DNA from: Candidatus Zixiibacteriota bacterium | Lineage (GTDB): Bacteria > Zixibacteria > MSB-5A5 > JAABVY01 > JAHJOQ01 | Direction: 5' to 3' | Assembly (NCBI GenBank): GCA_018820315.1 | Contig: JAHJOQ010000148.1 | Location: 1-35,261, forward strand | Length of the DNA: 35,261 nucleotides | Shown here: positions 458-20,952 of the stretch, in pieces | Layout of the letters: every line of letters begins with the position of its first letter | How positions within the stretch are numbered: the first letter of the stretch is position 1 | Notes under the pieces: model-generated | Told to the model about the DNA's origin: nothing | The model's input: only the letters and a program-made list of their open reading frames with translations | Database searches by the model: none | Program-made: the position numbers and the translations under genes

Positions 458-998
458 GGAAGCACGGCGGATGTTTCTCACTGGAGAAACAGACACCAAT
501 GCCGAGCTTGCCGGTCTGCTCCATGTCAAGCCACACACCATAGGCAAGTGGCGCAAGGAGGAAGACTGGGACGACTTGAGGATGAAGATCGATCGGCGGG
601 CTGCAGAGATGTTTGTCGAGAAGATCGCCAACGACCGTGTTACGCTTAATGTTCGTCACTATCGAATGTGGGAGTTGCTTCTGGCTAACCTTGCTGAGTA
701 TTTGAAGTCAGCAAAGGTCACCGATATCAGGGAGCTGGAACGCATCGCAGGCATCCTGGAGCGATCACAGAAGGGACAACGCTTGGCTAAAGGTCTGTCT
801 CAGACTGGAGATACCGAAGAAGCCATCCGCGCCCAGTCACAAGCTGAGATCAGGCGTGTGATCGACACTTTCATCGATGCGGTCAAGGAGTATGTCACGG
901 ATGAGAAGACCAGGGATAGTATCCGTCGCCACATTCTCGCAGCGCTACCTGAAGAAAAGGGTACCGGAATTGGCGGCTCCGGCAACGCGAGCAATTAG
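429..998 (+). CDS. Phage terminase small-subunit-like DNA-binding protein
   Basis: The protein has 189 residues. The N-terminal third holds a helix-turn-helix region: EEARRMFLTGE, then NAELAGLLHVKPHTIGKWRKEEDWDDL at about residues 22-48. This is the arrangement of phage terminase small subunits and DUF1804-like proteins, in which a resolvase-type HTH is followed by a WxxxEDWDxL motif. The remaining helices contain no enzymatic motif and would provide oligomerisation. The ATG at 429 follows an AGAGGA ribosome-binding site. The gene lies directly before a large terminase and overlaps it, which supports a role in recognising the packaging site. Similar HTH domains occur in other small phage regulators, so the call rests partly on context. 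Confidence 0.65.
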   Translation: MGKKHTRIREEARRMFLTGETDTNAELAGLLHVKPHTIGKWRKEEDWDDLRMKIDRRAAEMFVEKIANDRVTLNVRHYRMWELLLANLAEYLKSAKVTDIRELERIAGILERSQKGQRLAKGLSQTGDTEEAIRAQSQAEIRRVIDTFIDAVKEYVTDEKTRDSIRRHILAALPEEKGTGIGGSGNASN

Positions 999-2502
999 TG
1001 ATCCGCTGGCGGAGTGGGCCGTGGAGCGTGTACGACTGGAAGGTCTCCCTTTCCGGTTTGAGGGACACGAGTACCTCCGGGCTATATATGACGACACCTC
1101 TCCATATGTGGTCCTGAGCAAGGCTGCACAGATCGGTGGCACAACATGGGCTATTCTCAGAAGTCTGCACGCATGTCTCACAGGACTCAATGTCGTCTAC
1201 TTCTTTCCGACCAGAACCGATGTCCTCGACTTCTCAAAGACCAGAGTCAGTCCGCTGCTTGCAGACAATCCCTTCCTCTCTGAAATGATGACCGATACCG
1301 ATACTGCGGGATTGAAGAGAATCGGAGATTCGTATCTGTACCTCCGAGGAATGCAATCGACTGTCGGCATGAAATCAGTCCCCGCTGACATGGTCGTCTT
1401 CGATGAGTTGGATGAAACCTCACCCGCGGCCAAGGCGATGGCCAAGGAACGTCTGGCTCATTCGGATTACAAGCGCATCATAGAACTATCGAATCCCTCT
1501 TTGCCAGAATATGGGATCGATGAGCAGTATCAGAAATCGGACCAAAGGCACTGGACTTTGCGTTGCCCGGCTTGTGGGCACTGGACGGCTCCGGTGAAAG
1601 AGTTCCCTGTGAGATTGGGTCAGGATGTTAAGATCATCCGACGACGAAGCGACGGTACCTACTTCCTTGCATGCACCAAGTGTGGCGGGGAACTCGATAT
1701 AGCAGCTGGCGAGTGGGTTGCTGACTTCCCGGGACGGCCCATTCATGGATACCGTATCTCACAGCTCTTTTCTTCGAAGATCGATCCGGGCGAGATCATC
1801 ACAGAGTACCAGACTACTCGGTATCCCGATAGATTCTACAACCTCAAGATCGGCATTCCCTGGGCTGATCTCGAGAGGCGTCTCGATATCATGTCTGTAC
1901 TCAAGCTCTGCGGTGATTCTCCGATGTTTGAGCGCTGCGACCGAGGCAGTTGCGTTATGGGTGTTGATACCGGTAAGCAACTGCACGTGACTGTTCTGAG
2001 AGAAGACGGCATTGATCGCGAGAAGCGCCATCTGATTCATCTGGCTGTTTGTCATGACTTCTCGGATCTGGATGAGATCATGGAGAAGTTCCGCGTATGG
2101 CGATGCGTGATCGATGGGCTTCCTGAGACTCATGCAACACGAGACTTTGCACGCAGACATCGAGGGAAGGTCTTCCTCTGCTTCTTCAACGAGAGCCAGC
2201 GCGGAGTACCGAGGTGGGACAACGAATCCTTCACGGTCCAAATGAATCGCACCGAGGCGCTGGATGCCTCAAGAGCTGCTGTTCGAGAGAAGAAACTGAC
2301 TCTGCCGCGTCATCAGCCGATCATCGAGGAGTTTGCGCGGCACATGGCCTCTGATGCGAAGATATTGGAGGAAAACGAGGAGACCGGCGTTAAGAAATAC
2401 AAGTACGTCCGCACCGGTGAGGACCACTTCAGCTTGGCATTCACCTACGCGTGGCTCGCCGCATCCGATCACCGACTGAGGGCAGGCACATGGGGGCACT
2501 AG
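901..2502 (+). CDS. Phage terminase large subunit, GpA family
   Basis: This is the ATP-driven DNA-packaging motor and nuclease. From the ATG at 901 it has 533 residues. The ATPase domain shows a deviant Walker A, SKAAQIGGTT (about residues 73-82), with its lysine near the front as in the lambda gpA type (KSARVGYSK). A Walker B, DMVVFDELDE, lies at about 163-172. Two Cys pairs (CPACGHW and CTKCGGEL) form a zinc-ribbon-like insert. The C-terminal half contains MGVDTGKQ and CVIDGLPET, which fit acidic positions of the RNase H-like nuclease. The start is uncertain: in-frame ATGs at 877, 892 and 901 all overlap the small-subunit gene, and a TTG at 970 would reduce the overlap. Confidence 0.85.
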   Translation: MRRPGIVSVATFSQRYLKKRVPELAAPATRAISDPLAEWAVERVRLEGLPFRFEGHEYLRAIYDDTSPYVVLSKAAQIGGTTWAILRSLHACLTGLNVVYFFPTRTDVLDFSKTRVSPLLADNPFLSEMMTDTDTAGLKRIGDSYLYLRGMQSTVGMKSVPADMVVFDELDETSPAAKAMAKERLAHSDYKRIIELSNPSLPEYGIDEQYQKSDQRHWTLRCPACGHWTAPVKEFPVRLGQDVKIIRRRSDGTYFLACTKCGGELDIAAGEWVADFPGRPIHGYRISQLFSSKIDPGEIITEYQTTRYPDRFYNLKIGIPWADLERRLDIMSVLKLCGDSPMFERCDRGSCVMGVDTGKQLHVTVLREDGIDREKRHLIHLAVCHDFSDLDEIMEKFRVWRCVIDGLPETHATRDFARRHRGKVFLCFFNESQRGVPRWDNESFTVQMNRTEALDASRAAVREKKLTLPRHQPIIEEFARHMASDAKILEENEETGVKKYKYVRTGEDHFSLAFTYAWLAASDHRLRAGTWGH

Positions 2503-2961: not shown

Positions 2962-3450
2962 CTACTTCTCTTCATCATCGAGTTTGCGCAATTCGCGCAG
3001 GATGCCCAGGGCGCTGTTGCCGGTCGCAAGTTCAGCTATCTTCTCGAGTCGCTCCTGATCGGCCTCGAACTTCTTCTGCAATCTCGCTTCATAAGCCTTC
3101 TGGAGCTTTTCGAGGAGGTGCTCCAGTTCGTATGGTTTCGGCAGGTAGTCGAACGCACCAAGCCGCGTGCATTCCACCGCAGAATCGAGCGAGCCGTGAC
3201 CGGTGAGGATTATGACTTCGAGATACTTATGTTCTTTCTTGAGGATTTCCAGCACCTGCTTGCCGTTGAGGCCGGGCATCTTCAGATCGAGAAGAACCAG
3301 ATCGAATCTCTCTTTGCGCGCGATTTCAAGTGCCTGCTCGCCATTAGTCGCCTTTGTTATTTCGAAATCTCGAAGTTCCAGTCGTTTCGCAATCGAATCG
3401 AGGAACTTCAGTTCATCATCCACTATGAGGAGCCTTATCTTGCCTAACAT
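2962..3450 (-). CDS. Stand-alone response regulator receiver protein
   Basis: The protein has 162 residues from the ATG at 3450, which follows an AGAAGG ribosome-binding site at good spacing; an upstream in-frame start at 3495 lacks support. It has one complete receiver domain: acidic pair D11-D12, phospho-acceptor D55 in LLDLKMPG, T83 in ILTGHG and K105 in LPKPYE. After the receiver comes only a charged helical tail of about 45 residues with no DNA-binding or enzymatic output domain. It is the last gene of cassette A, 29 bases after the receiver-transporter fusion. It probably takes phosphate from the kinase encoded upstream (6150-7826) and acts by protein contact or as a phosphate sink. Both roles are inference. 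Confidence 0.9.
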   Translation of the reverse strand: MLGKIRLLIVDDELKFLDSIAKRLELRDFEITKATNGEQALEIARKERFDLVLLDLKMPGLNGKQVLEILKKEHKYLEVIILTGHGSLDSAVECTRLGAFDYLPKPYELEHLLEKLQKAYEARLQKKFEADQERLEKIAELATGNSALGILRELRKLDDEEK

Positions 3451-3479
3451 ACGTACCTTCTTTCTATGATCATACCATC

Positions 3480-5513
3480 CTAGAATCCGATCCAACGCCA
3501 GTAACCGAGAAATGTCCAGAACCAGAGCACGGCAAATGACAATAGCAGAACAACGAATCCATGCTTAAAGAAATCAGACAGCGTCACCAATTGCTCACCA
3601 GTTTGCGGATCCTTTGCAAGCGCGAAAGCGATAGCATTATTGGGGGTGCCGATAACGAGCATGTGCGCAAAGGAGGACGCAAACGCCGTGGCGAATCCGA
3701 TCATCCATGGATTTGTGCCGGATATTGTCGCCATCGGAATCGTAATCGGACCGATTGCCGAAACCGTGGCACCATCACTCATGAAGTTTGTCGTGATACC
3801 GGTGAATAAACTTGTTGCAATCGCGAGTCCCGTGCCGCTCCGCAGGAAGTCCGGCAGCAGGCTGACAAAGCTGTCCGCAAGATAGAGTGCGGCGCCGGTA
3901 ACAGCCAGCCCCTGTCCCAAGGCGCATGCACTGGCATATAGCGCAACGACATCCCAGGGAATTCTGGCAACATCGCGCCAACGAAGGACTCGCAGTATGT
4001 TCAGCACGATAAGGCACAGGATAACCGGTCCGCCCATGCCAAGCTTATCACTGGCCGTAATCCACAGGATGATCAAGCCCACGAGAGCGAATGCTGTGAT
4101 ATACTCTTTCTGGTTCATCGGACCGATCTTCTTGGCTGCCTGTTTGACCACTGAGGAGACATCGAGATTGCCGACCTTCAGTTTCTTCCGGAAAATGAGG
4201 AAGAAGTAAGTCCCTATCACAAGAGCCATCACCGGCACGAAGGGCAGCCCATACTGCACCCATTCTCCGAATGACGGAGCCACACCATAATCGGTAAGAA
4301 TTCCGAGCATGACCGCATTGCGCCCGCCGGCAGCAGGTGAACCGGGTCCGCCACAATTGGCAACAAAGCAGAGCGAAAGCACGAACATCACTGCCAGCGC
4401 CTTATCCTGTTTGGCTCCCGCAGCGCGCACACATGTGGCATACACCATCATGAATAGCGGCATTATGAAAGCGATTAGCGCATGCTCGGAGACAAATGAG
4501 CAGGCCATCCCGAACATTGGGAGAACCAGAAACAAAAGCAATTTCAGATTTTTCGCAGGCCCGAGCAGCAGAAGCCCAATCCTCCTGTCGAGTCCTGTCT
4601 TCGATATGGCGGTTGACATTGCCAATACGCCGAATATGAAAATCACGGCATCTTTGGAGTACGCTTTCGCGATATCGTCCGGTTTCATCACACCGAGGAA
4701 GTACATGAACGCCCCCACGAGCAGGGCGGTGATGCCGATCGGGATTGCACCGGTTGCCCAGAATAATGCCGCAACCAAGAGCGTGCCGAGCATGACTCTG
4801 GCCCGAAATGAGGCGCCGGACGGTGTCAGCGGTTCGCTGACCTTGACACCTTGACTGTCGACTCGTGTCGAGCCAAGTTTGCTGGTACGACCGTAGTACT
4901 CGGCGATATTCTCACCAACTTGCATCTTCGTATAGCCGGAATAGCCAAGTATAGGATCGCTTGTCTGACCTACCTTGGGCGATGATATCAATTGCATCAT
5001 CCGGTCCGGTGCCGGTGCAAGAACGATTGCCGCAAACAGAACGATTCCAAGGATGATCACCCCGGGCCGCGAATTGTGCGATCCCTTCAGCCAGCCCCAG
5101 GTGGAACCTTTGGAACTCTGCGGTATTTCGTGCTTTGCCAGCACCTGGATCTTATCCTCGCGCGCTTCATCTATAGTCTGGATGAGCTTCTCGAATTCAT
5201 AAGGCTTCTCCAGATACCGATAGGCATCGAGTCGACCGGTCTCCATCGCCGACTTAATGCTTCCGTGACCGGTCAGCATTATGACCTGAAGTTCCGGACG
5301 AAAACGCTTCAGCTCCATCAAAACTTCCTCACCGCTCATGCCCGGCATCTTGCGATCCAGTATGACAACATCAATATCTTTATCACTGCGAACAAGCTTC
5401 ACAGCATCCTCACCGCTGCTAAGTTCGACAGTGTCGTAACCACGCAACTTGAGACGCTGTGACAGCGATGTCCGAAATTTCTCTTCGTCGTCTATCAACA
5501 GTAGTCTGGACAT
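3480..5513 (-). CDS. Receiver domain fused to an SLC13/DASS-type anion transporter
   Basis: The protein has 677 residues. Residues 1-125 are a complete response-regulator receiver: acidic pair D8/D9, phospho-acceptor D53 in VILDRKMPG, T81 in MLTGHG and K103 in LEKPYE. After a linker, a first membrane helix (about 150-168) and an extracytoplasmic loop of about 70 residues, the rest is a multi-spanning permease with the two inverted repeats of the divalent anion:Na+ symporter (SLC13/ArsB) superfamily. Repeat landmarks are SFVSEHALIAF and NCGGPGSPAAGG in the first half, and TTNFMSDGATVSAIGPI and VIGTPNNAI in the second. The usual SNT ion-binding triplets read SEH and SDG. The receiver would lie in the cytoplasm, where a kinase could reach it. 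No stop or frameshift separates the parts. The start at ATG 5513 has a GGAG ribosome-binding site. The substrate is unknown. Confidence 0.9.
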   Translation of the reverse strand: MSRLLLIDDEEKFRTSLSQRLKLRGYDTVELSSGEDAVKLVRSDKDIDVVILDRKMPGMSGEEVLMELKRFRPELQVIMLTGHGSIKSAMETGRLDAYRYLEKPYEFEKLIQTIDEAREDKIQVLAKHEIPQSSKGSTWGWLKGSHNSRPGVIILGIVLFAAIVLAPAPDRMMQLISSPKVGQTSDPILGYSGYTKMQVGENIAEYYGRTSKLGSTRVDSQGVKVSEPLTPSGASFRARVMLGTLLVAALFWATGAIPIGITALLVGAFMYFLGVMKPDDIAKAYSKDAVIFIFGVLAMSTAISKTGLDRRIGLLLLGPAKNLKLLLFLVLPMFGMACSFVSEHALIAFIMPLFMMVYATCVRAAGAKQDKALAVMFVLSLCFVANCGGPGSPAAGGRNAVMLGILTDYGVAPSFGEWVQYGLPFVPVMALVIGTYFFLIFRKKLKVGNLDVSSVVKQAAKKIGPMNQKEYITAFALVGLIILWITASDKLGMGGPVILCLIVLNILRVLRWRDVARIPWDVVALYASACALGQGLAVTGAALYLADSFVSLLPDFLRSGTGLAIATSLFTGITTNFMSDGATVSAIGPITIPMATISGTNPWMIGFATAFASSFAHMLVIGTPNNAIAFALAKDPQTGEQLVTLSDFFKHGFVVLLLSFAVLWFWTFLGYWRWIGF

Positions 5514-5541: not shown

Positions 5542-6090
5542 CTATTCCGAAAGGTTCTTCATGTTCTCGGCAACTTCCTGGCATAAGTCCGAAAGTCGTA
5601 GAAGTCCGATCACTTTGTTTCCGCTGGTAACCGGAATAGACAGACATTCCCATTGTATTATCTTCGATATCGCCTCGCCAAGAGTAGCATTCTCGTCTAT
5701 GTTTTCACTGACGGGGTGCATGAAATCCTTGACGCGCTGTCTTGAAGCCCTCCTGCAGTAGTCGGACAGATTATTCTGAAAGAACCGATAGTGATCCATG
5801 ACGGATGACATGAACTGCTCAGTCACTCCGGCGCTAGCCAACCTGCTTGTATCTTTCATGAAGTCACGTCGCGGCTCAAGAGCCTTGAGAAAGGCCAACT
5901 GACCAAGTTTCCCGACTATATTGCCTGCGGCATCGACAGCAAGCACCGCCCGAAGGGGTTGCCTCTTCCTGTCCCGGCGAGCCTGAGCCTCCTCAATCGC
6001 GACAATTGCATCCAGCAGAGTGGCTTCCTGTGACACCACCGCGCACATTTCCAAAGGGATCATTATATCTCTGACGGTTTTGGTTTTCAT
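5542..6090 (-). CDS. CBS-domain pair protein
   Basis: The protein has 182 residues and begins MKTKTVRDIMIPLEMC, a typical start of a CBS domain. The second CBS domain begins at VKDFMHPVSENIDENATLGE and ends IPVTSGNKVIGLLRLSDL. Between them lies a helical insert of about 45 residues (LKALEPRRDFMKD to FFQNNLSDYCRR). CBS pairs bind adenine nucleotides or other ligands and commonly gate transporters and channels. The gene lies between the kinase and the receiver-transporter fusion, and its ATG is preceded by AGGAGG. A similar CBS pair with a similar insert is fused to a receiver in cassette B (14877-15764), so the two probably share a role in sensing energy state or ligand for the transporter. 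Confidence 0.88.
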   Translation of the reverse strand: MKTKTVRDIMIPLEMCAVVSQEATLLDAIVAIEEAQARRDRKRQPLRAVLAVDAAGNIVGKLGQLAFLKALEPRRDFMKDTSRLASAGVTEQFMSSVMDHYRFFQNNLSDYCRRASRQRVKDFMHPVSENIDENATLGEAISKIIQWECLSIPVTSGNKVIGLLRLSDLCQEVAENMKNLSE

Positions 6091-6149: not shown

Positions 6150-7826
6150 TCAATGACCATTTGACTTTGAGTCTAATGGAATTACCGCAGTAAACTCGCT
6201 ACCCTTGCCGGGTTCGCTCTCAACGGTGATCTTGCCTCCAAGATTGCGCACAATGCCGTAACTGACCGACAGACCGAGACCGGTCCCCTTGCCGACCGCT
6301 TTTGTAGTGAAGAACGGCATGAATATATTCTCCAATTGTGCAAGCGTCATCCCCTTGCCAGTGTCGGATATGGCAATCATCACATAGTTCCCGGCACGCT
6401 TCGTCTTGATTCTTATCGTTCCCGGATTGTCCTCCATCGCATCGATGGCATTGTTTAGAATGTTCAGAATCACTTGCTCCAATTGGTTGCCATCTGTCAG
6501 AAGCTCAGGAATATCCGTGGCGTAAGTTCGAACAATCTTGATGTTCGAGACACTCAGCTCATGACCAAGCAGCCCATCGACGACTTCGTCGATCAGCCGA
6601 TGAACATTCTGATGCCGCAGCTCAATGTCAGTCTTGCGGACAAAGCCTAGAAGTTTGCGCGTGATATCACGACACCTGAAGACCGACTCCTGTATTGAAT
6701 CCAGGTAGTGCTTCAGTTCCTCCGGTTTTACAGGCTCTCCCAAACTCGGATCCATGAGGTCTTTCATCAACCCGGCTTCTTCATTTATGGATGCCAGCGG
6801 GTTGTTGATCTCATGTGCTATGCCGGCAGCGAGTTCTCCCACGGATGCTAGCTTGGCCGCGTGACTGAGTTGAGCCCTACTGGAATCTGAGTCTCTTTGA
6901 AGTTCCACTCGTTTCCGTGAACGATTGACAATCACAAAGAAGCCGGCCAGCACAAGAACTGCGGCAACCGATATCACTCGAAATCGAAAACCGGACAGCA
7001 GGCCGCTCTGTTTGGCTGCAGATTGTTGAACAATCAGGACCCAATCGACTGTACGGAGCCACGAGTAACCATACACGGATAATGAACCATTGATCCGTGT
7101 CTGTTCGGCACCTTGTCGAGGATCCTGAGGCGGCAGAACCGGTGAGGCTTCCAACGGGCGGCCGACACTCGACGCGACCAACTGAAAGTCACCGAGATGA
7201 TTGAGGATTGACGTTACAACTTCCTGCGCACCATTGAGGGAGCTTATGTATTCGTACAGCCTCTCGGGATCGAGAGTCGCTCTCAAGACAACCACACCAG
7301 AATAAGTCACCCTGCTCACCGCAATTGTAAAATGAGGTTTCTGACGAAAGCCGAGATAAATATCCGTGACTATTGTGCTGGATTCGCCCTTTGTCAGATC
7401 GGAATACCATTTCTCGCCACTGTAGCTTTTCTTTTCCAGTGACGGAAACGGACCCGAATATGCCACCTGCACACCTGATGAGTCGAAGAACCCGATATCA
7501 ACGAAGGCTTCGCTTATCCTGCGCAACTCCGTCAGGTAATCTTGCATGTTTGAGGATGTGGGCGGAATCGGGAATTTGGGATTATCAATCACGTTGGATA
7601 AATTCACCCGGCGCTCGGTCATGAAAAGATCGAGAGTGTTCGCCTGACTCTCTGCAATTGCCCTGAGATGAAGCCTCTCGGTCTCTGAAATAAATGCGCC
7701 GTATTGAAGAACGAAGTACGCGGTCAGAAGTATTACCGGACTAAGATAGATTGCTGAGAGCCTCAGGATGGTCTTCCGCCTTAGATCGCGGTAGTAATCA
7801 GCCGATGTTCCCCATGTCAAATTCAC
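6150..7826 (-). CDS. Membrane sensor histidine kinase (cassette A)
   Basis: The protein has 558 residues. Membrane helix 1 lies at about 22-43 and helix 2 at about 284-300. The extracytoplasmic region of about 240 residues between them has dCache-like features ([19 protein letters not shown], then [11 protein letters not shown] and [15 protein letters not shown]). The cytoplasmic part has a HisKA domain with H338 in [13 protein letters not shown] and an HATPase domain with N box ([10 protein letters not shown]), G1 (DTGKGM), F box (FMPFFTTK) and G2 (GKGTGLGLS). This is a complete autokinase without a receiver. It starts at GTG 7826 with a GGAG about 11 bases upstream, so the start is somewhat uncertain. 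It is the first gene of cassette A. The other kinase in the window is also 558 residues long and shares its sensor-domain motifs, so the two look paralogous. Confidence 0.93.
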
Positions 7827-8053: not shown

Positions 8054-8717
8054 TTACTTCTTGTCTATCGCAACCTCTGCCATTTGAAACGTGATGTATC
8101 TGCTGTGCCTGACAACCTCCGCTCCAATCTTGATCAGTTTCACGAGGAGACTGCGAAGAGACCAGTGCTTGACTTTTCGGGGAAGAACCAGTCGTCGAAG
8201 AAAGTTTCCCAGATTATATGCCAGAACAAACAGCCAGAGCCTCACCTGATTCGAGACGAAATGCTTGCATGAGAGCCGTGTCCAGAATAACTCGTCGATG
8301 AGTGGTTTTGCCCATCGTTCTTTGAACCCACCTGCCATTGATATCTGACAGATTGTCGATGTCTTCCTTCTGGACCAGCATCTCGGTCTCGAAGCGTCCT
8401 ATCGTATTAGCACTTGCCGCGTGATTGCCCTTGCCCTTTTTCCCCGTGATCGCTCGCATGACAGGATCAACCGATAGACGCTGTGCATCATTGACGTCCT
8501 CATATCCAGCAAGACGACTATAAATCCATTGGCGTAAAAGCGTGGGCATATCATGTTGGATATTTCATCCAGTCCGGACATCGTAGAAAACGGCAGAGAC
8601 GGTGTCGAACAATCCAAGGGCGTCATCAAGGTCACGGTAAGCAAGGAGACCGCCGTCAGATGTCACCTTTGCACCGTGAAACTCGAGCTTAATACCTCCA
8701 TCAAAACCCATCTTCAT
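8054..8717 (-). pseudogene. IS1380-family transposase, frameshifted and missing its catalytic core
   Basis: Three minus-strand pieces in different frames together make an IS1380-type transposase. The N-terminus starts at ATG 8717 ([20 protein letters not shown]). The middle piece contains LLRQWIYSRLAGYEDVNDAQ, LSVDPVMRAITG and NTIGRFETEM. The C-terminus contains SNQVRLWLFVLAYNLGNFLR and ends near MAEVAIDKK. Such transposases usually have about 430-460 residues. Here the sequence jumps from RRVILD directly to the C-terminal RLSCKHFVSNQ, so some 150-200 residues with most of the DDE core are gone. There is also a frame break after about residue 50. The element is dead. No clear terminal inverted repeats were identified. 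Confidence 0.8.
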
Positions 8718-9192: not shown

Positions 9193-10170
9193 TCATGAGG
9201 GTCCCGTAGGTTTCAGTTTCCGCCACAGAGTCGACAGACCGATTCCGAGTATCTTGGCTGCTTTGGTTCGATTCCCTCCGGTCAACCGCAGCACCTCTCT
9301 GATGTGATCCAGTTCCACCTCCTCCAGTGTTCTCAGCGATTTGGCAATGTCCGACCCCGTGTATAATTCAGGCGATACCATTCTCGGAGGAAGATTCTTC
9401 ACTCGTATGATCCCATCCTCGCTTAGCACCGCCGCGCGCTCGATTGCGTTTCTCAGCTCCCGAACATTGCCGGGCCAAAGATACGACTGGAAGTAATCGA
9501 GGCATTCAGGCGCAATAGTCAGGTGCGGAAGATTCAATGCTCTTGAGAACTCTCTGACAAAGTGCGACGTGAGAAGCAGAATATCATCCGGGCGGTTACG
9601 CAATGGTGGTACCTCGATTTCGATGACCCGGAGCCTGTAAAGAAGATCCTCTCTGAACTTGTGCTGCGCGACAGAATCATCCAGATTGCGATTTGTCGCC
9701 GCGATTATGCGCGTGTCCACCTTTCGGGGGATGTTCTCTCCGATCCGGAGTATCTCCCTTTCCTGAAGAACACGCAGTAGCTTGACCTGAGTCGCGAGAC
9801 TTATATCTCCTATTTCGTCAAGGAGAATGGTGCCTCTCGCGGCCTGCTCGAACAGTCCGGTTCTATCTCGAATCGCGCCGGTAAACGAACCTGCCTTGTG
9901 CCCGAACAACTCGCTTTCGAGCAGAGTCTCAGGGAGGGCACCGCAGTTGACAGCCATCATTGGATACCGTGCCCTGGCGGATTCCCGGTGGATGAATCGC
10001 GCCACCACTTCCTTTCCCACGCCCGTTTCTCCCGAAATGAGAACCGACGAGTTGAACCTCGCCGCGCGGCGTGCGATATTGAGTGTGTTCCTGAACGCCT
10101 TGCTTCGGGCGACTTCGAACAATGGCTCGGAGTCGAAATGACGGTTATCGGATGAAGCACTGTCGGGCAT
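9193..10170 (-). CDS. Sigma-54-dependent transcriptional activator lacking an N-terminal sensor domain
   Basis: The protein has 325 residues from ATG 10170, which has AAGGA seven bases upstream. The possible longer frame to 10332 is Cys-rich and not protein-like. The AAA+ domain starts almost at once: Walker A GETGVGKE at 47-54, the sigma-54 contact loop as GSFTGA at 94-99 (usually GAFTGA), Walker B TILLDEIGD at about 114-122, and VKLLRVLQEREILRIG after it. The C-terminus has a Fis-type helix-turn-helix (GGNRTKAAKILGIGLSTLWR). There is no receiver, PAS or GAF domain, so control must come from expression or a partner protein. The gene is divergent from the cassette B kinase, whose upstream region has a sigma-54 promoter match. 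That operon is its likely target. Confidence 0.93.
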   Translation of the reverse strand: MPDSASSDNRHFDSEPLFEVARSKAFRNTLNIARRAARFNSSVLISGETGVGKEVVARFIHRESARARYPMMAVNCGALPETLLESELFGHKAGSFTGAIRDRTGLFEQAARGTILLDEIGDISLATQVKLLRVLQEREILRIGENIPRKVDTRIIAATNRNLDDSVAQHKFREDLLYRLRVIEIEVPPLRNRPDDILLLTSHFVREFSRALNLPHLTIAPECLDYFQSYLWPGNVRELRNAIERAAVLSEDGIIRVKNLPPRMVSPELYTGSDIAKSLRTLEEVELDHIREVLRLTGGNRTKAAKILGIGLSTLWRKLKPTGPS

Positions 10171-10189
10171 TATGCATCCTTCGTTTGAG

Positions 10190-10206
10190 TATGTCAGAAT
10201 GACATA
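10190..10206. promoter_or_regulatory. Perfect palindrome TATGTCA-gaa-TGACATA upstream of the sigma-54 activator
   Basis: Seven-base perfect arms with a three-base spacer sit 20 bases in front of the activator's start codon. The half-site TATGTCA recurs at 10294-10300 and ATGTCA at 10238-10243, all inside the same divergent promoter region. The arrangement fits an operator for autoregulation or for an unlinked regulator. The binding protein is unknown. Confidence 0.5.
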
Positions 10207-10265
10207 ACAGCATTTCATTATAGCAAGATATTTTCTCATGTCAAGATATTTCACAAAACATAAGC

Positions 10266-10290
10266 ACTTGCAATACAACATATTACAAGT
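10266..10290. promoter_or_regulatory. Inverted repeat, candidate activator-binding site for the cassette B promoter
   Basis: ACTTGCAATA, five bases, then TATTACAAGT: 10-base arms that match at 9 of 10 positions. It lies just upstream of the sigma-54 promoter candidate at 10304-10319. A binding site for the adjacent Fis-type activator is the obvious guess, although it is closer to the promoter than the usual enhancer sites. Confidence 0.45.
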
Positions 10291-10303
10291 ATCTATGTCA
10301 GAT

Positions 10304-10319
10304 GGGCATTCGGATTGCT
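10304..10319 (+). promoter_or_regulatory. Sigma-54 (-24/-12) promoter candidate for the cassette B operon
   Basis: The sequence GGGCATTCGGATTGCT has the invariant GG and GC pairs with exactly ten bases between them. It also has CA after the GG and the TTGCT -12 element of the consensus TGGCAC-N5-TTGCT. Transcription would start near 10330, about 55 bases before the kinase start codon. The neighbouring divergent gene encodes a sigma-54 activator, which supports the call. Confidence 0.6.
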
Positions 10320-10386
10320 TTTTGTCATGCAAAATGCCAGGATTCCTGGGAAGGAATGAACCGACAAAGGCGTGTGGAGTAATGGC

Positions 10387-12063
10387 ATGAGCGGAGGACA
10401 GAACTCAAAGGCACTTAACGTCACGAAGAGACTCCGTTGGAGAATTGTACTCGCACTCCTGACAGCCGCGCTCTTGCCACTTTTTTTGGCTGGCTTTGGA
10501 TCATGGGTTGTCTTCAGGGGAATGCTTGAACAGAAATCATCCGAGTTGATGATGAGTGTAGTCGAGAGCCACGCCAAAGCAATCGAATCACACCTTGCCG
10601 AGCAACTCCACCTTCTGGAGCTTGCCGCAAGCTCTTTCGATCTTAAGGAGATTGCATCGTCCGATAGACTCTCAAAACTGCTGATCGATCTGAATCAGTC
10701 CAGCAGCACCGGTTTTGTTGACCTGGGAATCATTGATGACAATGGCAATCACGCAGCCTACGTCGGCCCCTACGATTTGCGTGATCGTAATTATGCCGAA
10801 GCTGAGTGGTTCCGTGAGGTCATGGAATCCGGTACCCACATCAGCGATGTGTTCCTCGGATACCGCAAGGTGCCACACTGCATAATTGCTGTTAAAGCGC
10901 CATCGAAAGACAAACCGTGGCTGCTCCGTGCAACTATCAACAGTGAACAATTCGACAGGCTTGTGGAGACGGAGGTACTTGGAGAAGGTAGTTATGCCTA
11001 CATCGTGAACGGTGAGGGCTCTTATCAAACGACGCCCCTCGTCGGATCGTTGCTTGACTCGAAGCTGGAACCGATGATTGGTTACCACAGAGGCGTGCGG
11101 CAGAGCCGCATCGATGTGGACGGAGTCGAGAAGATCAGGGCGACGGCATGGATAAACGGTGGTCGCTGGATGCTCGGGGTTGAGCAGGATGTTAAAGCAA
11201 TTCAGGCGCCTGTTGACAAGGCGATTGCATATGGAGCACTGGTCGTTGCATTCGCGGTACTCCTGCTTGTGCTGACCACCTTCTTTGCCACATGGCATCT
11301 GACCGGCCAGATCAACAAAGCGACAGCCGAGAGAGATGAGATGTCGCTGGCTTTCCTGCGCTCGGCGAAACTTGCATCGATAGGCGAATTGGCAACCGGA
11401 CTGGCTCACGAGATCAACAATCCGCTGGCGATCATAAGCGCAGAACATACCAACATCTCGGATCTGATTCAACTCTCGGATAACAGCCCAACCTGGCGTG
11501 ACGAGATTCGCGATTCGGTCAAGCGATGCAAAGAGCAGGTGCGGCGGTGTGCCGGCATCACATCCAAAATGCTGCAGTTTGGAAGAAAGAGTGACTCTGC
11601 TGTAGAGCCGACAGATATCGTCCCAAGGCTTTCCGAGATAGTCGATCTGCTAAATCGTCATGCAAGTGTCCGTAACGTTCAGATCGATTGCACTATCAGC
11701 GGTGATATCCCGCGCGTGCTTGCCGACCCGATAGAGCTGGAACAGGTTCTGATCAATCTCATAAACAACGCTATCGATGCTATGCCCGCTGGCGGTAAAA
11801 TCACAATCAGTGCACATCGCCAGGATGAATATGTGCAGCTCGATGTCTCCGACAATGGTGTGGGCATAGCTTCCCAGGATCTCGATCGCGTTTTTGAACC
11901 ATTCTATACAACCAAGCCGCCAGGGAAGGGAACAGGACTTGGGTTGTCAGTATGTTACGGGATTGTTCAGTCGTGGGGTGGCCGCATCAGAGCCGACAGC
12001 AGAGTCGGTGAAGGAACGACGATACACATACTTCTGCCGTTTCATTCGTCAAAGAACGGCTAG
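10387..12063 (+). CDS. Membrane sensor histidine kinase (cassette B)
   Basis: The protein has 558 residues from ATG 10387, which follows GGAG at seven bases; an upstream GTG at 10372 is less likely. Membrane helices lie at about 19-42 and 282-303. They enclose a dCache-like sensor region with FVDLGIIDDNGNHAAYVGPY, EWFREVMESGT and VFLGYRKVPHCIIAV, clearly related to the cassette A kinase. The HisKA domain has H341 in [12 protein letters not shown]. The HATPase has NLINNAIDAMP, DNGVGI, FEPFYTTKPPGKG and TGLGLSVCYG. No receiver is fused. It starts a plus-strand operon whose next gene, 18 bases on, is a double receiver, its likely phosphotransfer partner. The conserved sensor core suggests both kinases sense related ligands. 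The ligand is not known. Confidence 0.94.
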   Translation: MSGGQNSKALNVTKRLRWRIVLALLTAALLPLFLAGFGSWVVFRGMLEQKSSELMMSVVESHAKAIESHLAEQLHLLELAASSFDLKEIASSDRLSKLLIDLNQSSSTGFVDLGIIDDNGNHAAYVGPYDLRDRNYAEAEWFREVMESGTHISDVFLGYRKVPHCIIAVKAPSKDKPWLLRATINSEQFDRLVETEVLGEGSYAYIVNGEGSYQTTPLVGSLLDSKLEPMIGYHRGVRQSRIDVDGVEKIRATAWINGGRWMLGVEQDVKAIQAPVDKAIAYGALVVAFAVLLLVLTTFFATWHLTGQINKATAERDEMSLAFLRSAKLASIGELATGLAHEINNPLAIISAEHTNISDLIQLSDNSPTWRDEIRDSVKRCKEQVRRCAGITSKMLQFGRKSDSAVEPTDIVPRLSEIVDLLNRHASVRNVQIDCTISGDIPRVLADPIELEQVLINLINNAIDAMPAGGKITISAHRQDEYVQLDVSDNGVGIASQDLDRVFEPFYTTKPPGKGTGLGLSVCYGIVQSWGGRIRADSRVGEGTTIHILLPFHSSKNG

Positions 12064-12081
12064 GAGAATGAGAGGGTGACT

Positions 12082-12939
12082 ATGAACGACAGGATGAAGA
12101 AGATCAGACTCCTGATGGTGGACGACGAGGAGGAGTTCCTGGTATCATCATCCCAAGCGCTTAGCCGAAGGGGATTCGATGTTGAGGTGGCCCCCAACGG
12201 GATCACTGCACTGGAGAAAGTAGATCAGCAGGGGTACGATGCCATAGTTCTGGATGTCAAAATGCCTGACATAGACGGTATACAGCTATTTAAGGAGATG
12301 CGTCAGAGATTGCCCGGTGTACCCATACTGCTCCTTACTGGATATGGCTCCATTTCGGATGCATTTCACACATCAAAGAATGGCGTAGCTGACTATCTGT
12401 TCAAGCCGATTGAGATGGATGACCTGGCGAACAGTATCCGCAGTGCGGTGGAGAAGGCGAGAACTCAGAAAGTGCTTGGCAATGAACGAAAAACGGAATC
12501 AGACCTTACCGTTCCGGTTCGAGTGATGCTGGTTGACGACGAGGTTCAGTTCCTGGACTCGATGATGAAGGTCCTATTGCGGCGGAACATGGATGTAACG
12601 ACCGCTGATGACGGTGAAAGGGCTCTGGCGCTGCTGAAGGAGAAGCTTGTGGATGTGGTGGTACTTGATCTTAAGATGCCCGGGATGGATGGGGTCGAGG
12701 TTTTGAGACGTATCAAAAGTGAATCCCCAAGTGTGGAAGTGATTGTTCTGACGGGTCACCCTTCTGTGGAAACGGCACTGGAGGTTGTCAATCTCGGTGC
12801 AAACGAATATCTGAAGAAGCCGCCGGATATCGAAGAACTGGTGAGCACAATTCGGAGATTGCACGAGGACCGTCAAAATGCAGTCAGGCGGCGTCAGCAG
12901 GAACTTATTGATGAGATTCGAAGAAGATATCCGGACTAG
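12082..12939 (+). CDS. Tandem double-receiver response regulator
   Basis: The protein has 285 residues from ATG 12082 (GAGGG five bases before; an in-frame GTG at 12076 is an alternative). There are two complete receivers. The first (about 7-125) has phospho-acceptor D58 in VLDVKMPD, T86 in LLTGYG and K108 in LFKPIE. The second (about 146-265) has D196 in VLDLKMPG, then VLTGHPS and LKKPPD. A basic helical tail (RQNAVRRRQQELIDEIRRRY) ends the protein. There is no DNA-binding domain. The gene lies between the kinase and the transporter. Two phosphorylation sites on one chain suggest a phosphate buffer or a bivalent adaptor towards kinase and transporter. Confidence 0.92.
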   Translation: MNDRMKKIRLLMVDDEEEFLVSSSQALSRRGFDVEVAPNGITALEKVDQQGYDAIVLDVKMPDIDGIQLFKEMRQRLPGVPILLLTGYGSISDAFHTSKNGVADYLFKPIEMDDLANSIRSAVEKARTQKVLGNERKTESDLTVPVRVMLVDDEVQFLDSMMKVLLRRNMDVTTADDGERALALLKEKLVDVVVLDLKMPGMDGVEVLRRIKSESPSVEVIVLTGHPSVETALEVVNLGANEYLKKPPDIEELVSTIRRLHEDRQNAVRRRQQELIDEIRRRYPD

Positions 12940-13008
12940 AGAGCATCGTGAGCAGACGAGATTCACTTGGTCGGAAATCGAGACCGGTGTCACGAACGGA
13001 GAATGATG

Positions 13009-14856
13009 ATGGCAGACAAAACAGCAGCAAGGGCTTCCTCATATGATAGGTACGTCGACTTCAGACGATTCGGCATCGTGATCGCGCTCTTTGTTATCAT
13101 ACTGATGCTGCCGATACCATCGAGTATGCTTGATGTAGCCGTCGAATACCAGATGGGGAAGACCTATGTCCTGGACTTCTATTCACAGGAGCTATTCGGG
13201 AAGTCCTTCAGTGAGACGGAGCAATGGCAGATGTTGACCGCCCAGGCCCTTGAAGCGTGTATGATGCAGGGTGCGAGTTCCAAAGCGACCGTGTTGAAGC
13301 GAAAGACTCGAGACTTGCAGAAAATGGGTATCCAGGTTCAAGCTGAACACTTGGAGAAATATCGCACATTCATAGAGAGCATGGATGATGAAGATGTCAA
13401 GGGGTTGCTGTTGCGCGGGCGGGAGCTGCGGCAAGAAAAGCTGTCATACAACATGCTCACCCCCGAACAGCAGCAGCAGGTTGACAGGAGGGCAAAGCAG
13501 CTTAAAGTCTGCATCGCACTCGTGGCCTTTGTTGTAATTTGTTTTGTGACTGAGGCGATCCCGCTTCCAGGTGTGGCATTTTGCATTGGTCTTATACTTG
13601 TTATGTCAGGCATAGTCTCGCGAGAAGAAGTAGCTCAGTTATTCTGGTCAGACGCCTGCTGGTTCATAATGGGAAGTCTCATGTTTGCTGCGGCTTTTGT
13701 TAAGACGGGAGTTGATAAACGGATCTGTCTTCTGATCTTCCGATCATTGGCAAAGCCGAGCGTCAAATGGGTGACTGCGATTATGATTTTGGTCATCTCT
13801 CCGGCGGCATCGTTTATATCCGACCACGCTCTGGCTGCAATTTTCCTACCGATAGGAATCATCCTGTACAATAACAGCCTCTCCAGAAATGTACCCGAAG
13901 ACAAAGAGCTGGCAAAGATGCTCATGATAACAATTGCAATGGCATGCAACATCGGAGGATTCGGTTCACCTTCGGGTGGTGCGCGAAATGTGATTATCAT
14001 GACCTACATGGAAGATATGTTTGGTTTGTCGATCGGTTACGGGCAATGGATACTCTATGGTGCACCGTTCGTAATTATCATGATGCCCTTGCTATGGCTG
14101 ACTATAAATTACAGATTCAAACCTCAGATCCATAGTCTGCAGCCTGCATTAGCCTCACTCAAATCGGATATCGACAGAATGGGCGGATGGAACCGAAAGC
14201 AAATCCTGGCAATAGCGATATTCCTCATAATGTTCATTGGGTGGGTGACAGAGAGCGGGCTGATTCTGCGACTGACCGGTATACGACTCGGAATAGGTGT
14301 AATCGCTGTTGCAGGAGCCATGGCTTATCTTCTGACCGGAGTCGTGAACTGGCGAGATTACCAGGAGAAAGTCGACTGGGGGGTTGTGTGGTTGTATGCC
14401 GGAGCGATCATCTTTGGTCGGGTGCTTGATTCGTCAGGAGCGGCATACTGGATAGCTCGTTCGATTGTCGAGTGGCTGGCCTCAATCGGTCTCAAGACGG
14501 GTACAGTGTTGCTCGGTGCCGGAGCTGCAGTTACGGCCGGTATGACAAACTTGATGGCCGACGGCCCGGCTGCGGCAGCCGTAGGACCGATTACGCTTAA
14601 TATGGCCGCCGCTGCTCAGCCGGGAACGACTCTCGTCCCATTTATGGGACTCGTGACCGCAGCGGCATCGTCATTTGCGTATCTTCTGATAATAGGCACT
14701 CCGCCCAATGCAATCGTATATTCGAGCGGCTTACTTTCGGCGAGAGACTTCCTGCGGGTCGGAATTATCTGTGTCGCGATATCATTTGCGGTTTTGCTGC
14801 TGCTCAGTATGTTTTATTGGCCACTAATCGGATTTGCTGGTTTGCCATCTGCTTAG
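13009..14856 (+). CDS. SLC13/DASS-type anion transporter (cassette B), no receiver
   Basis: The protein has 615 residues from ATG 13009, the last of three consecutive in-frame ATGs and the one best spaced from GGAG at 12998-13001. After a short cytoplasmic N-terminus, one membrane helix (FGIVIALFVIILMLPIP) and a hydrophilic, partly helical extracytoplasmic segment of about 110 residues, the permease begins at QLKVCIALVAFVVICFVTEA. The same landmarks occur as in the cassette A transporter: SFISDHALAAIFLPI and NIGGFGSPSGGARNV in repeat 1, MTNLMADGPAAAAVGPI and IIGTPPNAIV in repeat 2. The SNT triplets read SDH and ADG. Together with the porin at 15792-16976 it would form a two-membrane uptake route for an anion. 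The exact substrate (for example sulfate, phosphate or a dicarboxylate) cannot be read from the sequence. Confidence 0.88.
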   Translation: MADKTAARASSYDRYVDFRRFGIVIALFVIILMLPIPSSMLDVAVEYQMGKTYVLDFYSQELFGKSFSETEQWQMLTAQALEACMMQGASSKATVLKRKTRDLQKMGIQVQAEHLEKYRTFIESMDDEDVKGLLLRGRELRQEKLSYNMLTPEQQQQVDRRAKQLKVCIALVAFVVICFVTEAIPLPGVAFCIGLILVMSGIVSREEVAQLFWSDACWFIMGSLMFAAAFVKTGVDKRICLLIFRSLAKPSVKWVTAIMILVISPAASFISDHALAAIFLPIGIILYNNSLSRNVPEDKELAKMLMITIAMACNIGGFGSPSGGARNVIIMTYMEDMFGLSIGYGQWILYGAPFVIIMMPLLWLTINYRFKPQIHSLQPALASLKSDIDRMGGWNRKQILAIAIFLIMFIGWVTESGLILRLTGIRLGIGVIAVAGAMAYLLTGVVNWRDYQEKVDWGVVWLYAGAIIFGRVLDSSGAAYWIARSIVEWLASIGLKTGTVLLGAGAAVTAGMTNLMADGPAAAAVGPITLNMAAAAQPGTTLVPFMGLVTAAASSFAYLLIIGTPPNAIVYSSGLLSARDFLRVGIICVAISFAVLLLLSMFYWPLIGFAGLPSA

Positions 14857-14876
14857 AACTTAGCGAGGATACACTT

Positions 14877-15764
14877 ATGATTGAAGAGAGAAAGCACTTA
14901 AACCTACTCCTCGTAGATGACGAGGAGGATTTCAGACGAGTTACATCCTCCGTCCTCGGCAGGCGCGGTTTCGAGGTGACGGAAGCAGCTAACGGGGATG
15001 ATGCTCTCGATGCTGTCCGAGACGAGCACTTCGATATTGTCCTATTGGATCTTAAAATGCCCGGCAAGAGCGGCATCGAGACTCTCAAAGAACTCAGGAA
15101 GATTAAACCGAATCTGCCGGTGATCATCCTCACCGGACACGGTGACTTCGAGGCCGCTGTAACTACAATAAAACTGGATATCGTCGACTTCCTGCAGAAG
15201 CCGGTGGACATCGATCTCTTGGCAAATCGTATTCACGATCTGATTAGGCTGGGGATAGAAAGCGGACCTCTGCGAGAGCAAACAATATCGGAGTTGATGG
15301 TTCCGCCATCCGTATATCCACGAATCAACGTCGATGAGCCGCTTGAGAATGTGCTGAGTGCTCTCAAGAAGTCATTCACTCCTCCAGAGCCGCATGTTGC
15401 TCAACCGGGCGAAATTAGATCGGCTCTCGTGTATGATTCGAACGACAAGTTCCTTGGGATTATCCGTTTCAATGATCTTCTCAAATTGCTGCTCCCGCCC
15501 TATCTCGGAGATTCGCCGTACGCGACGTATTTCACCGGCATGTTTCTCGCACAGTGCAAGGTGCTGGGCAGCAGAAGAATCGAAGAGTTGGTAGGTGATC
15601 CAATTGTTGTCGAAGCGGATGCGCCGATTATGGAAGCTATTCACCTGATGGTTGACAATCGCTTGATCAATCTGCCGGTAGTCAAATCGGGGCAACTTGT
15701 GGGAATATTGAGAGGGCGCGATGTAGTGCTCGAAGTTGCGCGCAGCATGGGATCGATGAGATAA
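14877..15764 (+). CDS. Receiver domain fused to a CBS-domain pair
   Basis: The protein has 295 residues from ATG 14877, with GAGG eight bases upstream and 20 bases after the transporter stop. Residues 1-125 are a complete receiver: phospho-acceptor D58 in LLDLKMPG, then ILTGHG and LQKPVD. Residues from about 138 form a CBS pair: the first starts at ISELMVPPSVYPRINVDEPL, the second at IEELVGDPIVVEADAPIMEA and ends LPVVKSGQLVGILRGRDVV. The helical insert between them (LKLLLPPYLGDSPYATYFTG) resembles the insert of the separate CBS protein of cassette A. The protein could combine a phosphorylation input with nucleotide or ligand sensing, probably to control the transporter encoded just upstream. 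Confidence 0.92.
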   Translation: MIEERKHLNLLLVDDEEDFRRVTSSVLGRRGFEVTEAANGDDALDAVRDEHFDIVLLDLKMPGKSGIETLKELRKIKPNLPVIILTGHGDFEAAVTTIKLDIVDFLQKPVDIDLLANRIHDLIRLGIESGPLREQTISELMVPPSVYPRINVDEPLENVLSALKKSFTPPEPHVAQPGEIRSALVYDSNDKFLGIIRFNDLLKLLLPPYLGDSPYATYFTGMFLAQCKVLGSRRIEELVGDPIVVEADAPIMEAIHLMVDNRLINLPVVKSGQLVGILRGRDVVLEVARSMGSMR

Positions 15765-15791: not shown

Positions 15792-16976
15792 ATGACTAAT
15801 CGATACTTTCTTCTACTGATTGTCACCGGCGTGATTTGCATCTCGTCCGGCAGCGGCCTCGCGTCAATCGGGCCGTTCGAGATCTCAAATGCAGACAGCA
15901 GCAGCAAAATACGTCTGCAATTCGTCGGACAACTCCGAACGATTCTCGAAAGTCGTGATCAGGGTGCAAACCGTGACAGGCAGAACACCGGACGGACGGA
16001 GGCTAGACGTGTTCGTCTGGTTCTGAGCGGGAGCATTCTGAAACCGAACTTGTCCTACAAGCTGCATCTAAGCGCGGCTCCTGGCTCGTCAGAATTGATG
16101 GATTTCTATTTCGACTACCGAATTGCTGATCGCATGCAGATCCGTTGTGGGCAGTATAAAGTCCCGTTCACTCGCTACCGTATTCAGTCGTTCCAACAGC
16201 TTACATTTGCCGACTGGTCGATCGTGTCGACCTATTTCGGAGCCGAGAGGCAGATGGGCATTTCTTTACATAACGGCTATGAACAACCGGCGGAGTTTTC
16301 TTACGTTGTAGGGCTGTTTACGGGCGTCAACGCGCGTGCATCGCATGCAGTGGGGTTGTCGAAACTGAGCGGGATGGCTCTTTCGAATCCATCCGACCTA
16401 TCGGAACCGGGATCAAATGCGGGAATCCATCCAGAGCTGTTTCTCCATGCCTCATACAACGCCAACGGAATAAAGGTGCAGTCAGACAGCGATGAGGAGA
16501 GAGGCGGATTTCGTTATAGCGCCGGAGTGAGCGCGGCATGGGATCTGAATCCGGTATCGAAGAAAGATCTCGCGGGTCGCATAGCTCCCGAAGTCCTCAT
16601 GAAGTATCGCGGAGCTTCCGCTGCCTGCGTCGGTTACGCCGCATTCGGAGGAATCAGCGATCCATCGAGCTCAGAGCTTGTGCTGCTGGGCGGGTTGTTT
16701 CAGTCGGCATATCGATTCGTGCGGAATTGGGAGGTATCTGCGAGATATAGCGTCGTAGATGTCAGAAGTTCTCTTATCGATGAACTTCTGGAAGAAAAAC
16801 CCATCTCTGCCGATGCGCAGGTGCGTCGCGAGCATGAAATCACGCTGGGAGTCAACATATATGTTATGGGGCACAATCTCAAGATTCAGAACGATTTGAC
16901 CTGGTTGAGGCACTCGTATATCTCGAAATCACTTGATGATTTTGTTGCCAGGTCACAATGTCAGTTGGCATTGTGA
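15792..16976 (+). CDS. Outer-membrane porin, phosphate-selective OprO/OprP type
   Basis: The protein has 394 residues. It begins with a signal peptide (MTNRYFLLLIVTGVICISSG, cleavage probably near GLAS). The mature part has the beta-barrel repeats of the porin O/P family: KIRLQFVGQLRTI, RRVRLVLSGSILKPNLSYKL, DFYFDYRIADRMQIRCGQYK, VPFTRYRIQSF and GAERQMGISL. Such porins are trimeric and often anion-selective. The basic lysine/arginine arrangement that sets phosphate selectivity cannot be assigned without a structure. It is the last gene of cassette B, 27 bases after the receiver-CBS gene, so outer-membrane entry of the anion is probably co-expressed with the inner-membrane transporter and its signalling proteins. 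Confidence 0.85.
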   Translation: MTNRYFLLLIVTGVICISSGSGLASIGPFEISNADSSSKIRLQFVGQLRTILESRDQGANRDRQNTGRTEARRVRLVLSGSILKPNLSYKLHLSAAPGSSELMDFYFDYRIADRMQIRCGQYKVPFTRYRIQSFQQLTFADWSIVSTYFGAERQMGISLHNGYEQPAEFSYVVGLFTGVNARASHAVGLSKLSGMALSNPSDLSEPGSNAGIHPELFLHASYNANGIKVQSDSDEERGGFRYSAGVSAAWDLNPVSKKDLAGRIAPEVLMKYRGASAACVGYAAFGGISDPSSSELVLLGGLFQSAYRFVRNWEVSARYSVVDVRSSLIDELLEEKPISADAQVRREHEITLGVNIYVMGHNLKIQNDLTWLRHSYISKSLDDFVARSQCQLAL

Positions 16977-16977: not shown

Positions 16978-17101
16978 ATAAGGATTGAGGAGAATAAGCA
17001 TATCTCGGTCGTCGCCACGCGCAAAATGTACTGATTACATAATGTAGTAGATACGCAAACATGCACTGCGCAGTTAGTGGGTTAGATTGCAGAGGGAAAC
17101 T

Positions 17102-17494
17102 ATGACCATCAAGACGCCACACGAAAAGACAGTTGCTGTTCTGGATACGAGCGATTTCCAGGCTCCTCTAAATGCGCTGGCTTCCAATGGATACGATCTT
17201 TCTCTAACCGAGATTGTCGAGGCGAATCGTCCGCTCTTCCTCCTTGATTCAGGTTCATTAGACAGAGCCGATCGATCAGCTAAGTGGGATTCATGTTATA
17301 CTACGGATTTCTCATATATACATGGAGGCAGCATACGGACTTCGAGTACGTTTCGTTATCGCCAGTGGATGCTGCACAAGCTCGCCTATTGGCTGGATCA
17401 GTTTCGAACATTTGGCTGTGGGCGATGCATTGCATGGTGTCCAGCGGCAATAGACATCACAGGAGAAGCCGGCATTCTGCGGGAGCAGGTGTGA
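17102..17494 (+). pseudogene. Internally deleted 4Fe-4S dicluster protein (HydB / sulfhydrogenase beta-like)
   Basis: The frame from ATG 17102 (ribosome-binding site AGAGGGA) gives only 130 residues, against about 350 in the family that accompanies group 3b-type hydrogenases and sulfhydrogenases. The first 30 residues (AVLDTSDFQAPLNALASNGYD) match the family N-terminus. The sequence then jumps to DLSLTEIVEANRPLFLLDSG, which matches a segment far downstream. The C-terminus (FRYRQWMLHKLAYWLDQF, then GCGRCIAWCPAAIDITGEAG) is the second 4Fe-4S site, but the first Cys of the usual CxxCGRCxxxCP motif is replaced: TFGCGRC instead of CVGCGRC. The remaining motif could not form the normal cluster set. 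The family assignment is from memory of conserved motifs. Confidence 0.6.
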
Positions 17495-17530
17495 TATCAA
17501 CCAGATCAGATATTGGAAGGTGAGAGCAGA

Positions 17531-17998
17531 ATGGAGAATCTTGAACGGATCTTGAGAGATCATCCCATCGTTGCCGGCCTAAGCCCAGAGCATGTCAGTC
17601 TGCTGGTTGGCTGCGCATCAAATGTCGTCTTCAAAGCAGGTGAGTTCATATTTCGGGAGGGAGATGACGCTGATTCATTTTATGTCATCAGGCAGGGCAA
17701 GGTGGTTCTTGAGACCTATGTCCCGCACATGGGTCCGAAAGCCATTCAGACGCGTGTTGCCGGGGAAGTAACCGGCTGGTCATGGATGGTCGAGCCTTAC
17801 AGGTGGCACTTTGACGCTCGAGCGCTCGAATTGACCAAGGCAATTGCGCTCGATGGCAAATGCCTGCGCGAGAAATGCGAAAAGGACCACGATCTCGGCT
17901 ATGCACTGATCAAGAAGTTCTTCGGAATAATCGCCCAGAGATTGGAAGCAACGCAGTTGCAACTCATGGATATTTACAGAACTAACTCCCATGACTGA
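17531..17998 (+). CDS. Cyclic-nucleotide-binding-domain protein without DNA-binding domain
   Basis: The protein has 155 residues from ATG 17531 (GGAAGGTGAG upstream; a TTG at 17513 is less likely). It consists of one cNMP-binding beta-roll: HPIVAGLSPEHVSLL, FKAGEFIFREGDDADSFYVI and RQGKVVLET, then GEVTGWSWMVEPYRWHFDAR and a helix ending in QRLEATQLQLMDIY. There is no helix-turn-helix, so it is not a Crp/Fnr regulator. The GWSW-x-PYRWHFDAR block, where the cyclic-nucleotide phosphate cassette would be, is characteristic of a small family encoded next to dicluster and gamma subunits of group 3 hydrogenases. Here both neighbours look decayed, but this gene appears intact. What it binds is unknown. 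Confidence 0.8.
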   Translation: MENLERILRDHPIVAGLSPEHVSLLVGCASNVVFKAGEFIFREGDDADSFYVIRQGKVVLETYVPHMGPKAIQTRVAGEVTGWSWMVEPYRWHFDARALELTKAIALDGKCLREKCEKDHDLGYALIKKFFGIIAQRLEATQLQLMDIYRTNSHD

Positions 17999-20698: not shown

Positions 20699-20700
20699 TT

Positions 20701-20952
20701 ATGTGTCTTGCAGTTCCAGGGAAGTTGATCAGCAAGAGCGACTGCGAGCCGATGTTGCGCTCTGGCAGGATCGATTTTGGAGGAATCGTCAAGGATGTCA
20801 GCCTGGCTTTCGTTCCTGAAGCTCGCTTGGGAGACTATCTGCTCGTTCACGCCGGCATAGCCATTGGCATCGTCGATGAAGAAGAGGTATCAAGAATTAC
20901 TGACTACCTCAAGGAAATTCACCTTCAGGATTTGGGAGATGATCGCAGATGA
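20701..20952 (+). CDS. hypC: Hydrogenase maturation chaperone HypC
   Basis: The 83-residue protein begins [11 protein letters not shown]. The conserved N-terminal Cys2, exposed after Met removal, binds the Fe(CN)2CO unit. The following [20 protein letters not shown] and [20 protein letters not shown] are family hallmarks of the OB-fold. HypC works with HypD to assemble the iron moiety and delivers it to the large-subunit precursor (MvhA, 31441-32904). Start and stop lie two and minus four bases from hypF and hypD, so it is translated with them. Confidence 0.97.

Follow-up and report, generated by a model that had tools for sequence, protein, structure and literature searches.

Two-component systems usually act on transcription, enzyme activity or motor switching. 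Transporters are on the input side of such systems in the known transporter-kinase fusions (CbrA, CrbS and the Amt-kinase) and in the DctA-DcuS pair, where a non-covalent complex provides the coupling and a transcription factor serves as response regulator. The functional coupling of the dicarboxylate transporter DctA to the sensor kinase DcuS has been described (PMC5703999), as have the SLC5/STAC histidine kinases (CbrA, CrbS, RpuS), which carry a two-component protein and a secondary-transporter domain in one chain (PMC7096432, PMC9100948), and the ammonium sensor kinase of Kuenenia, in which an Amt domain is fused to a histidine kinase (PMC5764959). Among secondary transporters, the DASS proteins contain two Ser-Asn-Thr (SNT) motifs through which both carboxylates are bound and which contribute to the Na1 and Na2 sites, and the INDY proteins are dimeric, with a scaffold made of TMs 1-4 and 7-9 (PMC7553777).

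Here we describe a response-regulator receiver fused to a permease of the DASS/SLC13 fold, encoded on a stretch of 35,261 nucleotides from a Candidatus Zixiibacteriota bacterium (contig JAHJOQ010000148.1), which was analysed as a whole and is referred to as the window. Unlike the SLC5/STAC proteins, in which the transporter domain is joined to the kinase and serves the input side, this chain holds a receiver only, and the kinase is a separate gene product with its own sensor. The Kuenenia protein also joins a transport fold to a two-component domain, but there the fold is Amt, the fused partner is the kinase and the role is that of a sensor. A complete receiver is shared with response regulators of the NtrC, DctD and FixJ types (NtrC1 and DctD are among the closest receivers of solved structure), whose outputs are DNA-, RNA- or protein-binding or enzymatic, whereas the output domain here is a polytopic transporter. 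The fold and the Pfam family Na_sulph_symp are those of DASS/SLC13 proteins (VcINDY, LaINDY, NaS1, NaCT), from which the fusion differs by having SEH/SDG for SNT/SNT, an N-terminal receiver and linker, and some 60 residues that form a mini-domain between TM1 and TM2. It is likewise distinct from CBS-regulated transporters, the CBS domain being located on a separate protein of 182 aa outside the transporter chain. No description of a receiver-DASS fusion, or of a receiver on any secondary transporter, was found in the open-licence PMC texts searched, and an earlier mention elsewhere is possible. The combination probably appears in automatic domain databases.

Features of the fusion gene, of its module and of the second module in the window (residue numbers refer to the protein encoded by the feature)
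Feature	Position	Strand	Details
Receiver-DASS fusion	3480..5513	-	677 aa; receiver 1-127, linker 128-149, TM1 150-170, mini-domain about 171-230, DASS core 231-677; Pfam, alignments, AlphaFold2 model, Foldseek
Fused receiver domain, residues 1-127	5133..5513	-	Long alpha5 helix; phospho-acceptor D53
Conserved linker, residues 128-150	5064..5132	-	W141, G144, R149, P150 invariant or almost invariant
DASS/SLC13-fold permease core, residues 231-677	3483..4823	-	S342-E343-H344 and S579-D580-G581 replace SNT/SNT
Sensor histidine kinase	6150..7826	-	Extracytoplasmic dCache-like domain; putative phosphodonor; Pfam
CBS-domain protein	5542..6090	-	182 aa; one Pfam CBS at 120-174
Companion single-domain receiver	2962..3450	-	162 aa; sister paralogue of fused receiver
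Second-module dCache histidine kinase	10372..12063	+	Pfam
Second-module tandem receiver-receiver protein	12076..12939	+	Not fused to transporter
Second-module DASS paralogue	12967..14856	+	No receiver; SDH and ADG motifs; long insert separating TM1 and TM2
Second-module receiver-CBS protein	14817..15764	+	

The minus-strand frame from 5513 to 3480 is a single ORF without interruption, starting at an ATG with a ribosome-binding site (GGAG) 7 nt upstream. Pfam assigns Response_reg to residues 5-114 (E 1.4e-24) and Na_sulph_symp to residues 231-675 (E 7e-41). In the AlphaFold2 model (mean pLDDT 85.8, pTM 0.77) the receiver is N-terminal to TM1 of the DASS fold, and a Foldseek search with this model matched NaS1, VcINDY and receivers. 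At the outset the fusion was known from a single assembly, in which a missed stop, a frameshift or a chimeric contig could have joined two separate genes, one for a receiver and one for a permease. This reading is now extremely improbable: in related genomes of the same class, homologues at 64-72% identity align over residues 1-677 with no stop between the domains, and the same full-length frame recurs in dozens of assemblies that are independent of one another and cover many phyla. Since these homologues share both the full-length frame and a conserved linker, the fusion is not an assembly artefact, and a chance run-on is ruled out along with a frameshift or chimeric contig. The preliminary description of this DNA, which had reported one uninterrupted receiver-permease frame with D8/D9, D53, T81 and K103 and had named a stop, a frameshift or a lack of homologues as what would overturn it, is thus borne out in each of these respects.

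The architecture is widespread. Within the class, full-length homologues extend to other families and orders, and the fusion occurs in 34 of the 133 genomes in the Zixibacteria sample (35 matching rows minus one receiver-less paralogue). A search of about 85,000 species genomes returned 192 relatives; of the best 80 of these, which were analysed, 78 carry the receiver in frame, the exceptions being one with an N-gap (L051) and one in which the contig ends where the receiver would be (L118). Both Pfam families were matched in 57/57 diverse members scanned. According to binning labels, the homologues come from Zixibacteria, Acidobacteriota, Planctomycetota including Phycisphaerae, Calditrichota, Gemmatimonadota, Desulfobacterota (Desulfobacteraceae/Desulfobacula/Desulfotignum), Fibrobacteria and Myxococcales. 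Spread on plasmids was considered and rejected, as tblastn against plasmids found no match.

The fused receiver has the residues expected of a response-regulator receiver: the acidic pocket, the acceptor Asp, the Thr and the Lys. In an alignment of 78 sequences that includes the fusion of the window, D8 and K103 are present in 78/78, D53 and T81 in 77/78 and D9 in 75/78, and the full set is intact in 75/78. The linker is nearly as conserved as the receiver (majority-residue conservation 0.66 for residues 119-151 vs 0.68), with W141 found in 77/78 sequences and G144, R149 and P150 in all 78. The earlier proposal of a receiver as a built-in domain of a secondary anion transporter therefore stands in part: a phospho-competent N-terminal domain of a protein with a secondary-transporter fold is kept across phyla, but the label "anion" is not established.

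The DASS/SLC13 fold extends over the whole permease, which is a complete DASS core with conserved hairpin motifs. Its best Foldseek matches are all SLC13/INDY proteins, led by NaS1 (E 3.7e-18), NaCT and VcINDY; the TM-score to VcINDY, normalised by target, is 0.77-0.80, and VcINDY was also matched by phmmer (E 9e-22). Identity to DASS/SLC13 transporters is about 20-24%, and the NCBIfam DASS model TIGR00785 scores 171.7 bits, below its curated cut-off of 198.6. Both SNT motifs are replaced, S342-E343-H344 and S579-D580-G581 being invariant in 78/78 fusions, and the remainder of the pocket is extremely conserved despite this replacement. The complete-looking SLC13-type permease of the preliminary description thus holds as to its fold, but "anion transporter" should not be asserted, because the replacement of both motifs is invariant; as the canonical ligand and Na+ motifs are gone and each now contains charged residues, transport itself is putative. 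The second DASS paralogue of the window and the receiver-less CBS-linked relatives (SAH or SAP with SDA) also lack the canonical motifs, so the whole clade has departed from the canonical site. Involvement of protons or metals would be a guess, and the neighbouring genes offered no consistent candidate for the substrate. The mini-domain, which is conserved, would be extracytoplasmic if the receiver is cytoplasmic. Two receiver-less DASS relatives about 40% identical, L036 (G036:C39) and L039 (G057:C32), adjoin a CBS gene and may represent an unfused outgroup to the fusion clade.

The fusion gene belongs to a module of four genes on the same strand with operon-like spacing: 59 bp separate the kinase from the CBS gene, 28 bp the CBS gene from the fusion and 29 bp the fusion from the companion receiver. 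The last was listed as 2962-3495, but its most probable start is the ATG at 3450, downstream of the fusion stop. In the kinase, the Pfam domains HisKA and HATPase_c score above their cut-offs and dCache_1 just below; the N-terminal half of the CBS protein looks like a divergent second CBS. Of the 58 loci that had sufficient flanking DNA, 54 have a same-strand histidine kinase within 2.5 kb (upstream in 52), 50 have a single-domain companion receiver immediately after the fusion and 43 have a CBS gene; after clustering, no fifth neighbour gene was common to more than five loci. The distance matrix of the DASS core correlates with those of the kinase (r=0.78), the receiver (0.63) and the companion (0.60), values which shared descent alone would yield and which therefore show co-inheritance rather than contact. 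The four-gene module has no DNA-binding domain, which leaves the transporter as the sole candidate effector and fits the idea of membrane signalling without transcription. Sites resembling promoters say little: sigma-54 matches before the module are uninformative (19 loose matches in the window vs 18.4 expected), and sigma-70-like sites there likewise have little weight.

In a tree of 237 receivers, the fused ones form a single clade (84/84, support 0.998), with the 74 companion receivers as the sister clade (support 0.978, joint node 0.988). It follows, as the simplest reading of the tree, that one receiver was duplicated in tandem and that one copy was then fused to the permease, each event having occurred once. 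Two sister paralogues beside one kinase also suggest that both are its substrates.

The loss of kinases links receiver chemistry to the kinase. In four fusion copies the receiver is degraded, by D9Q in L021 (locus L033), L056 and L060 and by D9P, D53A and T81S in L112; each of them keeps the fusion and has no kinase in its neighbourhood. A fifth kinase-less copy, L114, has intact catalytic residues. Loss of D9 or D53 thus affects 4/5 kinase-less copies, whereas 46/46 kinase-linked fusions scored have an intact DDDTK set (Fisher p ~1e-5, taking 0/54 kinase-linked loci as degraded). The genomes of the three D9Q copies are related, and each also holds an intact kinase-linked copy. Decay thus occurred independently at least twice, and when it is counted as two events, p is ~0.002. 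The test itself was conceived only once the data were known.

We propose that the fusion is the effector of the two-component module, a model to which we give a roughly even chance. The dCache kinase would sense an extracytoplasmic ligand and phosphorylate D53 of the receiver, which the transporter carries at its cytoplasmic N-terminus, altering the surface and self-association of the receiver. By way of the long alpha5 helix and the linker residues W141, G144 and R149-P150, this change would reach TM1 in the scaffold domain and would alter how fast or in which direction the elevator cycle runs. The companion receiver may act as a trans-regulator, sink or buffer by competing for the same phosphoryl groups, and a nucleotide or energy input may come from the CBS protein. 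The observations on which the model is built are the architecture, its conservation and single origin, the gene linkage, the catalytic residues and the co-loss of kinase and receiver chemistry. Counting against it are the second module, whose receivers are not fused to the transporter, the persistence of copies with degraded receivers and the replacement of both ligand and Na+ motifs. Under this model the signalling pathway may switch transport directly at the membrane and not via gene expression. More tentatively, with somewhat less than an even chance, the family would be a widespread class of response regulators with a secondary-transporter output, in which a four-gene module controls solute movement by aspartyl phosphorylation; the DASS binding site, re-engineered and charged, would hence serve a new substrate or coupling ion. 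A phospho-acceptor located covalently within a transporter, in a conserved multi-phylum family, would widen the output repertoire of two-component systems to direct control of membrane transport. The question of gating is approachable with one purified protein and its kinase, and the family offers a handle on the physiology of Zixibacteria and other poorly cultured phyla and on the ligand of a DASS pocket without SNT.

In the main alternative, information would flow in the reverse direction, the permease being a sensor (transceptor) whose ligand or turnover alters phosphate handling by the fused receiver or its engagement with the kinase, with the companion receiver as output through competition. 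Because the SNT motifs are replaced, invariantly and within an otherwise extremely conserved pocket, a sensor-like role is a real rival. The retention of the companion, a sister paralogue, in 50/58 loci speaks for it too, as do the precedents of transporters acting as co-sensors of kinases or as fused sensors: DctA/DcuS (PMC5703999), Amt-kinase (PMC5764959) and SLC5/CbrA (PMC7096432). We nevertheless consider it rather unlikely, since the kinase already has a dCache sensor of its own, the companion likewise has no effector domain, the permease core retains the complete DASS fold with its conserved hairpin motifs, and in the known transporter-sensors it is the kinase that is fused and not the receiver. 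The degraded copies raise another alternative, in which the receiver mainly recruits the kinase, the companion or the CBS protein to the transporter and phosphorylation is secondary. Copies with a degraded acid pocket or without the acceptor Asp (L021, L056, L060, L112) keep both the fusion and a CBS neighbour, and their persistence means that the receiver may have a phosphorylation-independent role. As the main function of the domain, docking is improbable given that the full catalytic set is maintained in 75/78 sequences and that decay is seen only where the kinase is missing.

The second module (10372-15764, plus strand) contains the same parts as the fusion module in another covalent arrangement. 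Like the CBS protein and the duplicated companion receiver, it goes beyond what the preliminary description of the fusion mentions. The two modules are adjacent also in L072, L073, L085, L088, L094, L105 and L113 and co-occur in several phyla. In Zixibacteria, the fusion is carried by 7/8 genomes with the second module vs 34/133 overall (Fisher p 2.8e-4, uncorrected for relatedness), and the two modules probably act together or on related solutes. An outer-membrane protein of the Porin_O_P family (15792-16976, plus strand) lies directly 3' of the second module, and a similar porin is found near the fusion module in L057; this neighbour is a possible hint at the solute.

Between the two modules, at 9193-10332 on the minus strand, the window encodes a sigma-54 activator without a receiver domain. 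A perfect TTGACA-16-TATAAT promoter-like site at 10244-10217 falls within this listed ORF, and the real start of the activator is therefore probably further downstream. A fragment of a DDE transposase (DDE_Tnp_1_4; 8054-8549, minus strand) is situated between the kinase and the sigma-54 activator. On the other side, adjoining the fusion module, the large subunit of a phage terminase (GpA family; 877-2502, plus strand) marks what is probably a prophage remnant. Beyond the porin gene, a long NiFe hydrogenase / heterodisulfide-reductase-like cluster with hypF, hypD, hypA and hypB-like maturation genes occupies 17087-34493 of the plus strand.
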